The translations under genes were made by a program, and so were the position numbers. Below the pieces are notes generated by a model. That model saw only the letters and a list, made by a program, of their open reading frames with translations, was not told the origin of the DNA and did not search any database. DNA of 64,000 bases from an uncultured Methanobrevibacter sp. (GTDB lineage Archaea > Methanobacteriota > Methanobacteria > Methanobacteriales > Methanobacteriaceae): NCBI RefSeq assembly GCF_902769175.1, contig NZ_CACXNW010000002.1:1-64000 (forward strand), in the 5' to 3' direction. This document shows positions 21,105 through 52,706 of this stretch, one piece after another; the stretch's first letter is position 1, and each line of letters opens with the position of its first letter.

Positions 21105-21236
21105 AAAAATCCCCATCAAAATTTATATTTTCCCTTAATTAATATATAGAAATATTTAATCCAAGGACAATTCATTAAATATTAACTAACTACTTTTTCC
21201 CATAATAATTGAAATAATATTAATTTAATATTATTT
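21105..21236. promoter_or_regulatory. Upstream region of the giant surface-protein gene
   Basis: About 130 AT-rich bases between the surface-protein start and the left end of the decayed insertion sequence. On the minus strand it holds several TATA-like stretches (for example near 21,136-21,160), but no single promoter can be singled out by eye. Confidence 0.3.
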
Positions 21237-22244
21237 AGGCTTTGTTGAAATCCTATAATTTTGATGCAAGTTTTATAATAAAAATCTTTAAATTTCGTAA
21301 AATTAAATATAACCACAAAAAATTTATTTCATCATATAAATTTTAATTAATCCGATTAGAAAATAAGCAATAATAATATATTTACTAAAAAGAACGATAA
21401 AAATTAATATGAAAACAAAAAAATTCATTCTCCATGCTTATTTTTGTTATTCGTTACAGTCAAATCTTTCAGGATTTGGATTTGAAAATCCAACCGAAAA
21501 TTGTATCATGACTGATGAACGATGCCAAAAGTGAATTTAACCTAAATTATATTGAAATTTTTGTTAACTTACACATTTGAATAAACTTAAATAAAGTTAA
21601 AAAAATATTCCAGTAAATTATCTAAGATTATTTACATAAATATAGTTAAATTCACCCTTGGCATCGAAAAACTATCTGAATCTTACTTTTCGTAAGGTTT
21701 GCGATTTATTGAACTTATCCAATGATAATCGCAAGATTTTTAAGACTCCAAATTACCCCATAACAGCACTTTGCAAAAATTTTTTAAAAGCTTGCATATA
21801 AAAATTTTGTATAGTTTTAACGATTTTAACGCTATATTTGTGAATAAGTGTTAAATAATTGCCCTTAATGGTTTTGGATTCATAAATGCAAGTCTACAGA
21901 AAATGAAACGATTTAATCGAATTAGAATGTCTGTGACAAAGCATATGACGCAAAAAACATCAGAACAACTATTATGAAGAAATTAATGCTTTTAATACAA
22001 TTCCAAACAAAACCAACATCAAAACAGGTTATTTCAGATAATGAAACAATTAGGTTTTTAGAAAACCTACCTATAACCGATAGAACAATGTTGAAAGTAT
22101 CTTTAGCGTAATAAAAGACAGTTTAGTGGAATTAACTCAACCAGAAGCACTAAACTCTTAAAAAAAGGAAACAAAACTAAATGTTTAATCTATAACATTT
22201 AAAAATCAATCATATTAATTAAATATAGGATTTCAACAGAACCT
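21237..22244 (+). mobile_element. Decayed insertion sequence (IS5/IS1182-like), about 1.0 kb
   Basis: The ends are 21-bp inverted repeats matching at 19 positions: AGGCTTTGTTGAAATCCTAT at 21237 and the inverse of AGGTTCTGTTGAAATCCTAT at 22224-22244. On the plus strand from about 21,930, broken frames read DKAYDAKNIRTTI, EEINAFNTIPNKTNIKTG, NNVESIFSVIK and GINSTRSTKLLKK. This is the C-terminal part of a DDE transposase with the D..YD and Y/N-x-x-E motifs. Frameshifts and stops are frequent and the N-terminal part is not recognisable, so the element is dead. No clear target-site duplication was seen. Confidence 0.75.
21520..21667. mobile_element. MITE-like 148-bp element with 22-bp terminal inverted repeats
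   Basis: Left arm CGATGCCAAAAGTGAATTTA at 21520 and right arm (read inversely) CGATGCCAAGGGTGAATTTA ending at 21667 match at 20 of 22 positions. The 104 bases between are AT-rich and non-coding. It sits inside the decayed insertion sequence where transposase coding would be expected, so it probably inserted later. Its ends differ from those of the surrounding element. A long-armed hairpin RNA is the alternative. Confidence 0.55.
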
Positions 22245-22723
22245 ATCATTTAACATATCCCACCATTTTTAATATACATGTATATTATCACATATAAATC
22301 TTTTGTTGTCTATACCGACATTATTGTTTATGCAATTACAGTTGTCGATTTGAAAATAAGATTTCTTAAAACAACGTTGAGATTGCTACTTGAAACATGA
22401 AACCTCCTTGCAGCGTTGTTTGCATTTAATGCATATCCAATACAAATATTGTTAGATTACGAGAAATGGTAATTCCTTGACTATATCTTGAGTCCGAAGT
22501 TGAACTATACTCATAATCACAGGTAATTAAACCTCAGAATCAACTTCCCATTTATATCTTGATTTAAATCTGTAAAAGTCTTAATGCCCTGCGACAATAT
22601 ATCTTCATCTAGTAAAAAAAGTTATATGTTAGGATTCTGATTTAATTACTAAAAATTAAATTGGATTTTTCCATTATTAATACATATTAAGCTATAACTT
22701 ATCGTTATTTACTAAAAAAAAGA
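22245..22723. other. Intergenic region with a possible second transposase remnant
   Basis: The minus strand between about 22,470 and 22,340 gives ISRNLTIFVLDM and, after a frameshift, LNANNAARRFHVSSSNLNVV, which resembles a helix-turn-helix segment of a transposase. The similarity is weak and no ends can be defined. Confidence 0.3.
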
Positions 22724-22817
22724 GACTGTGAAATTTATAGGCTTATTTATATTTCATTAGATTTCTTTATAAGTAAAAATTAATATTATGATTTTAAGCC
22801 TAAACTTTTTTACAAAC
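22724..22817 (+). repeat. 94-bp dispersed element, copy 1
   Basis: Nearly identical, in the opposite orientation, to 43037-43130. Both copies start with CTGTRAAATTT-ATAGGCTTA and end with TAAGCCTAAACTTTTTTAC followed by AAAC, so the ends form an imperfect inverted repeat. The inner segment TTTATAAGTAAAAAT is conserved. No coding potential was seen. Confidence 0.75.
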
Positions 22818-22978
22818 CAAAAAAAGAAAAATAGAAAAAATTGGAAGTTGTCCTCTTTTATATTAAAAAAAAAAGAAAAATAGAAAAAAATAAAAAAAGA
22901 TAAACCTAAAAACGGTTTATTAAAAATAAAATAAAAATAATAAAATCAAAACTGCACAAATAGTAAAAGATTTTTGGT

Positions 22979-23010
22979 CAAGGTTTTTGAGGCGAAGCCT
23001 CAAAAAACTT
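22979..23010 (-). terminator. TTCG-capped hairpin after sucC
   Basis: On the minus strand, five bases after the sucC stop codon: CAAG, then TTTTTTGAGGC, loop TTC/TTCG, GCCTCAAAAA, then CTTG, followed by ACCAAAAATCTTTT. The same arrangement with a different stem core follows atwA at 48269-48301, which supports a real RNA structure, probably a 3'-end signal. Confidence 0.75.
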
Positions 23011-23014
23011 GGGT

Positions 23015-43013: not shown

Positions 43014-43036
43014 TTATTTTTTCTTTTTTTTTTTGA
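43014..43036 (+). terminator. Poly-T terminator after the TIM-barrel gene
   Basis: A run of about 18 pyrimidines, nearly all T, begins two bases after the stop codon. Archaeal RNA polymerase stops at such U-tracts without needing a hairpin. Confidence 0.55.
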
Positions 43037-43130
43037 GTTTGTAAAAAAGTTTAGGCTTAAAATCATAATTTGATTTTTACTTATAAAGAGATCTAATAAA
43101 ATTATAATAAGCCTATAAAATTTTACAGCC
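43037..43130 (-). repeat. 94-bp dispersed element, copy 2 (inverted relative to copy 1)
   Basis: Read on the minus strand it matches 22724-22817 almost throughout: CTGTAAAATTTTATAGGCTT at one end, TTTATAAGTAAAAAT inside and TTTTAAGCCTAAACTTTTTT at the other. It sits between the TIM-barrel gene terminator and the promoter region of the adhesin gene. Confidence 0.75.
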
Positions 43131-43334
43131 ACCTTTTTTTAAATTTTTATACATTTCGATAAAATTACGTACTATTTTTATACAATTAACTTTTTATAAA
43201 AAATTTTTTTTAAATTTGAAAAATATTCAATTTCTGAACTAATATATGAATAAAATATATTGTTTAAAAAAATTTATATTAATAATGTTATATAAATAAT
43301 ATTAAAAAATAAACAATTTTTAGGAGATACAACT

Positions 43335-45277
43335 ATGAAATTCCAAAGATATGCCACTTTGGTACTGATACTCTTAGTTTGTATGATTAGTATCTCTGCA
43401 GTTAATGCAGCAGATGATTCTACAAGCGGCATTATCAGTACTAGCGATAATGAAGAATTAATTTTAGATGAAATAATCAGCGATGATGTTTCAACAAGCA
43501 CTGATGCTGATGATATAGAACTAAATTTAGCTGACAATGATGATGTAGATGAAATTATTTCCAGTACTGAAGAACCAGCATTAAAAGAAGAGCAAACAGG
43601 TTCATTTACAGATTTAAATAATCTTATTGCTAGTGGAAATGCTGATAATCCAATTACTTTAAACCGCAATTATAAATATACTGATGATGATTCTGATTTT
43701 AATAACGGAATCAATATAAACCATGCGATAATAATTAATGGTGCGGGATTTACAATAGATGGATCAAATAAAGCACGTATTTTTAATATAACTTCAGATA
43801 ATGTCATATTCAATGACATCACTTTTATCAATGCTTACCGCATAGGTTCCAATGGAGGAGCCATTACAGGAGATTGTACTGCAATAAACTGTAACTTCAT
43901 AAACAACACCGCTGAACTCAGAGTAGGAATAACCGATGATGGCACTGTAACCTTCTTTGGTTCTGGTGGTGCCATGATGGGAGGTACTGCAATAAACTGT
44001 AACTTCATAAACAACACAGCAGGCTTGCTTGGAGGGGCTATGTTTGGTGGTAATGCAATAAACTGTAACTTCATAAACAACACAGCAGATCAACAAGGAG
44101 GGGCTATTTATCAAGGTTATATGACTCTTTGTAAGTTTGTAAATAATGAATATTATGATACTGGAATTACTTCTGCTAATTTTATTGCTCTAGACTTTAC
44201 TTCCACCTATAACTCTGGTGAAAAATTAATATTCAATGTACTAGCTGACAAAAAACTTTATGATGGCCTTAACACCACCATTAAAGTTTATCAAGGTGAC
44301 AACTTAGTAGGAACCTATTATGGATTAAGTGGTAACCAAGGAGGATGGGCTCCTAATTTGAATCCGGAGAATATAAAGTGGTCTTAAGTCTCGAAAATAT
44401 TGCAGGAATCAATGATTGCACAATTAATATAAAAATTTTAGGTCAAACTACCATCAAAACAAACAACCTTGTAACTGCTTATAATAGTGGTGATAACTTC
44501 ATTATTACCTTAAGTTATGGTAAACCTTTAAGTGGAGTTGCTGTGACTGTTGATTTCAATGGTGCTGTAAAAAATTATACAACTGATAATAATGGTCAAA
44601 TAAAAATATCTACCAAAGGATTAACAGTAGGAAATTATAATGCTAAAATCTCTTATGCAGGAGAAGGTTGCTACTTAGGATCAACTGCTAGCGCTGTTGT
44701 GAAAATCAACAAAGCTAAAACTAAAATTACAGCCCCTGCAATTACTGCAACTTATAATAAGTACAAAGATTTAGTAATTACTTTAAAAGACAGCAATGGA
44801 AAAGCTTTAAGCAACGCTCAAGTAGTCATATATCTAAATGGTATTAAAAAACTCACTACTGATAAAAATGGACAAGTAAAAATATCCACTAAAGACTTGG
44901 CACCAAAAGCATATTCAGTAGACATCTTATATAATGGAAATGAGAACTACGTGGACTCCTCTGCTACTACAAAAATAACAGTTAAAAAAGCTACTCCAAC
45001 ATTGACTGCCAGTGCAAAAACCTTCAAAGTTAGTGTAAAAACTAAAAAGTACAGCATTACTTTGAAAGACAACACAGGAAAAGTCATGAAAAACACTAAA
45101 GTTACTTTGACTGTCAATAAGAAAACCTATACTGTAAAAACTAACAGTAAAGGTATAGCTACCTTCTCAATTACCAACTTAAATAAAAAAGGTAAATTTA
45201 CTGCAACTGTTACCTATGCAGGAAGCAGCTACTACAACAAAGTAACTAAAAAATCAGTGATTACTATAAAAGCTTAA
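43335..45277 (+). pseudogene. Adhesin-like secreted protein, one frameshift
   Basis: Starts at an ATG with AGGAGATACAACT upstream and a clear signal peptide (VLILLVCMISISAVNA). A beta-helix domain follows with coils of the INCNFINNTA type; three copies of a 29-bp DNA unit begin at 43881, 43989 and 44055. Three Ig-like domains complete it (for example VVKINKAKTKITAPAITATY, then YKDLVITLKDSNGKALSNAQ). Near 44372-44378 the frame shifts: adding one A to AAA in ENIK joins the two frames as ENIKVVLSLENIAG, giving about 647 residues. There is no C-terminal anchor; the end (KKSVITIKA) is the usual strand of the last domain. Confidence 0.8.
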
Positions 45278-52363: not shown

Positions 52364-52706
52364 ATCATTGTTAAAATTTAAATTGTTAACTGTTTAAAAT
52401 TTTAAATAAATTTTATTTAATTATTAGATTAATTATTATATTTCTAACCATATTTAAATATTTTCATTAAAGGAAATATTATAAAAAAATTATTTAAATA
52501 TGGAAAAAATGAAAAATAGAAAAAGATCCAATAGAATGAAATAATAATGGAAAAATAAAAGAATTAGAGAATAAATGAAAGAATAATATAAGAATAAAAT
52601 AATAAAAGAATAAGAAAAAATAAAAGAATAGAAAATAAATGAAACTATAAAAAAAATATGAATAAAATAAAAAGAATAGCAAACTATCCTTTTTTTTAAA
52701 AAAAAA
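52364..52706. other. A-rich intergenic region
   Basis: Downstream of the adhesin stop codon (minus strand) there are imperfect short repeats of AATAAAAGAATA and AAAATAAATGAA (about 52,550-52,660), U-rich in that transcript. The right-hand start of the AAA gene has TATA-like sequence near 52,420. Nothing else was seen. Confidence 0.45.

Follow-up and report, generated by a model that had tools for sequence, protein, structure and literature searches.

The window, a stretch of 64,000 nucleotides of DNA from an uncultured Methanobrevibacter sp., has a short repeat in two copies lying in inverse orientation and 20 kb apart. Copy A (97 bp, positions 22722 to 22818, + strand) is located downstream of the succinyl-CoA ligase gene (sucC) at a distance of 196 bp, and copy B (98 bp, positions 43035 to 43132, - strand) starts 21 bp past the stop codon of a Dus-like gene. 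An earlier note on this DNA had described these two inverse copies with slightly narrower limits. Its wording, 'nearly identical', is a little strong, although the identity is high (89 of 95 aligned bases, plus 5 one-base gaps). The note had also placed both copies next to adhesin genes or transposon debris; adhesin-like ORFs are indeed found on the far sides of both copies, but sucC and the Dus-like gene are nearest, and no debris was identified in a non-exhaustive look. In most relatives the spacer 3' of sucC is much shorter than the one here (window positions 21120 to 23014), an apparent convergent gene lying within a few hundred bases of sucC, and the region behind sucC seems to have been rearranged in the host lineage. 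Two adhesin-like ORFs (window positions 43335 to 45277) separate the Dus-like gene from a DUF134 gene, and the relatives showed no match to these ORFs next to Dus.

Copy A reads GAGACTGT...ACAAACC, in which the last bases have decayed relative to the consensus CTC, and copy B, read on the - strand, is GTGGCTGT...ACAAACTC. The terminal inverted repeat of copy A consists of an end resembling that of the insertion sequence (IS) ISM1 (positions 22722 to 22745, + strand, GAGACTGTGAAATTTATAGGCTTA) and a second end type (positions 22795 to 22818, - strand, consensus GAGTTTGTAAAAAAGTTTAGGCTTA). On the + strand, its target-site duplications are AAAAAAAA on the left (positions 22714 to 22721), which is a homopolymer and weak on its own, and AAAAAAAG on the right (positions 22819 to 22826, 7/8 match). 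The left flank of copy B (positions 43023 to 43034, + strand) is a C followed by 11 T, that is, the target duplication with the T run expanded, and the right duplication (positions 43133 to 43140, + strand) is CTTTTTTT; after it comes AAAT, which is also seen at the empty site of the relative G012.

These two copies belong to a dispersed family. A genome-wide search, which the earlier note had suggested, gave 46 matches to the element in the host assembly (3.12 Mb, 88% complete), including about 28 near-full-length and several partial copies. A sequence-profile search of the same genome gave 38 matches (E<=0.1), and searches for the two termini returned 24 and 25 matches, as opposed to 0 for the reversed control, indicating that the recurrence is far beyond chance. 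In the alignment, the copies run from GAG to CTC; most have a length of 95-101 bp (typically ~99 bp), and they have no coding capacity. Their ends form imperfect terminal inverted repeats of ~25 bp, each having an outer box (GAG..TGTAAAA), a five-base spacer and an inner box (TAGGCTTA); the spacers of the two ends are not complementary. The inverted repeat that the earlier note had seen at the ends, TAGGCTTA/TAAGCCTA, is thus real but corresponds to the inner box, the true ends (GAG/CTC) lying ~17 bp further out. Pairwise divergence among the copies is 1-18% (mean 10%), suggesting that most of the insertions are not recent and that the family was active over some time. In an exact-match scan of named genomes, the core of the element was found in one other assembly, that of an uncultured Methanobrevibacter from reindeer.

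The flanking sequences of the copies were consistent with transposition. A perfect 8-bp target duplication is present in 12 of 28 copies, where 2.0 were expected from re-paired flanks; none of 20,000 flank shuffles reached 12, and the flank identity peaks at 8 bp. Note that many of these duplications are runs of A or T, which we counted against an interpretation as a miniature inverted-repeat transposable element (MITE), but CCATTTTA, ATTTTATT, AAATTAAA, TTTAATTT and ATTATTTT are not homopolymers. In the spacer behind the Dus-like gene, the element is absent from all 12 same-genus relatives with readable sequence. The relative G012, whose Dus protein is 96% identical, shows the unoccupied target (TAA TTATTTTTTCTTTTTTAAAT), as compared with the occupied site in the host (TAA TTATTTTTTCTTTTTTTTTTT, the element, CTTTTTTTAAAT). 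The sequence behind sucC in the relatives is also without the element, the spacer there being too different to align. The insertions are intergenic and lie in A/T-rich sequence, and no ORF is interrupted by the element in the 28 copies examined. This avoidance of ORFs exceeds the expectation from A/T-only 8-mers alone (p about 1e-4) and is presumably due to selection.

The parent of the element was sought among 150 relatives by using matches to its first ~36 bp. Paired end matches in the relatives bound an IS of 1381 bp whose single ORF has about 400 codons. The first 36 bp of the element match the ends of this IS at 92%, and its second end (GAGTTTGTAAAAAAGTTTAGGCTTA) matches them mainly in the two boxes. 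In M. smithii PS, the copy whose complete sequence was read is bounded by perfect inverted repeats of 29 bp and flanked by the duplication CCAAAAAT; the duplications of the IS (CCAAAAAT and AGGAAAAT) are 8 bp long, the same length as those of the short element. The search listed ten intact copies of the IS in M. smithii PS. We take this 1381-bp IS of M. smithii PS to be, most likely, ISM1 (ISNCY family, ISM1 group) of Methanobrevibacter smithii, the name being likely rather than proven. ISM1 has 29-bp repeats and an 8-bp duplication and occurs in about ten copies in M. smithii; its published length, 1183 bp, disagrees with the 1381 bp of the IS here. The alignment of 11 members of the transposase family has an invariant CxxC...CxxC motif and the invariant residues D187, D244 and E361, which probably represent a zinc ribbon and a DDE-type centre. 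Searches with the transposase against Pfam and NCBIfam gave weak matches to several transposase families, all below the cut-offs, and a PDB sequence search gave no meaningful match; plasmids yielded only Halococcus transposases (28% identical) and phages none. The genome of M. smithii PS is 1,853,160 bp in size (PMC2812497). The relative G010 has many sites at which ISM1-like IS ends adjoin transposase C-termini.

The host assembly, at its 88% completeness, yielded no intact ISM1-type transposase, and a search with paired end sequences found no parent IS there. A decayed fragment with four stops (G000:C21:20752-21030, locus L195 1501-1779) was the one clear remnant of such a transposase that the assembly yielded. 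The interior of the short element has no convincing match to the interior of the IS; because the ends are shared and the interior is not, the element is not merely an IS with part of its interior deleted. An IS256-type (PF00872) and a DDE_Tnp_1-type (PF01609) parent were also considered, and neither transposase was found in the host assembly.

The earlier note had proposed either a MITE or a small conserved RNA. In favour of a small structured RNA, regulatory or acting at 3' ends, which had been dispersed and kept for its function, the consensus folds better than shuffled sequences on both strands (z -3.4 and -5.0), and many copies follow genes. However, such folding is expected from any element with inverted repeats. 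Covariation among 26 copies gave 1 pair with double changes as against 0.9 expected from shuffles, so that compensatory change is not in excess; the consensus fold of the alignment is nearly empty (-1.0 kcal/mol, 0 compensatory pairs), and no Rfam family matches the element. The element is inserted in both orientations with respect to the T strand of the target, with no preferred strand, and a functional RNA leaves the target duplications and the empty sites unexplained. We therefore regard this explanation as very improbable. Even less credence can be given to the proposal that copies A and B are recombination sites serving to invert the 20 kb between them, which we consider almost certainly wrong; the earlier note had pointed out that recombination between the two copies would produce such an inversion. 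Two inverse copies at this distance do exist, but they belong to a family of about 30 dispersed copies, and their identity is only 89% over ~98 bp. Five relatives (G001, G002, G010, G012 and G013) have the same gene order and direction from Dus to DUF134 across copy B, indicating that the copy B boundary is in its usual state. This comparison covers the copy B boundary, the region after sucC (copy A) being different in the relatives, and the orientation of sucC and Dus in the relatives is uninformative on an inversion because both genes are inside the interval.

The position of many copies behind genes also bears on the possibility that the element specifically targets archaeal oligo-T terminators. 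Among the oligo-T/A targets, 20 of 24 are in the sense of the upstream gene, and the start of copy B just past a stop codon would agree with such targeting. However, 65% of the oligo-T tracts in the window are already in the upstream-gene sense and the excess is not significant (p = 0.08), and a preference for A/T 8-mers together with selection against gene disruption suffices to account for the distribution; specific targeting is thus unlikely. Somewhat less likely still, in our estimation, is that the MITE family outlived its transposase in this host and has taken on a role behind methanogen genes, as a dispersed 3'-end hairpin or spare terminator. A transcript leaving sucC or the Dus-like gene could enter the hairpin, and any functional role of this kind is hypothetical.

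Multiple copies with inverted-repeat ends, 8-bp target duplications, empty orthologous sites and ends shared with an IS together make it very probable that the repeat is a non-autonomous DNA transposon, a MITE of ~99 bp, as one of the suggestions in the earlier note had it. Judging from the sequence, its ends are of the ISM1 type, one by the 36-bp match and the other mainly by the boxes. An ISM1-type transposase of Methanobacteriaceae would recognize the outer and inner boxes and move the element by ordinary DDE transposition, in which staggered cuts would lead to the duplication of 8 bp of the target; the element encodes nothing, and the transposase would be supplied in trans. Since an intact ISM1-type transposase was not found in the host assembly, this mobilization of the MITE is what we infer, and with the decayed transposase fragment alone found there the family looks orphaned in the host genome.

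Among the closest known systems is the ISM1-like IS of M. smithii PS, which has the ends GAGTCTGTAAAATTTTATAGGCTTATTTG and an 8-bp A/T-rich duplication and shares one end with the MITE (92% over 36 bp), whereas the MITE lacks an ORF, measures ~99 bp and has the second end type, whose similarity to the IS ends lies mainly in the two boxes. The MITEs SM1-SM4 of Sulfolobus solfataricus, which belong to other IS families, are from a different host and were compared by description. Like SM1-SM4 as described in the available part of a review of archaeal MITEs, where 25-44 copies are given for the SM families, the present element is short, non-coding, multi-copy and archaeal (PMC10969869). That part of the review names no Methanobrevibacter MITE (PMC10969869), and a literature search for ISM1 or MITEs in Methanobrevibacter found nothing specific; the family itself appears to be undescribed, while the type of element is ordinary. 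It adds to the rumen and gut methanogens a MITE family of which no description was found in the literature searched. Its copies offer presence/absence markers for strains, the element is a ready substrate for testing ISM1-type transposases, and the short near-palindromes in these spacers are to be read as transposon relics rather than RNA genes.

Related elements and variant copies were also observed. The relative G010, of the same genus, has a MITE family with the same ends and about the same length but with a different interior, suggesting a separate origin or a replaced interior. In the host genome, an expanded copy (G000:C20 ~52500-52667, locus L019 1513-1690) has an interior of tandem units of ~40 bp. 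Another copy (G000:C28:86137-86261, locus L033 2138-2262) lies directly behind a separate terminal-repeat sequence, GAGACTGTAAAATTTTATCTGC, an arrangement suggesting that a related element was inserted in a nested or adjacent position. At two loci (L031 2852-2875 and L032 2342-2365), an ISM1-like end stands alone, lacking the second end of the MITE; these may be solo ends or may represent other MITE families that share such ends.
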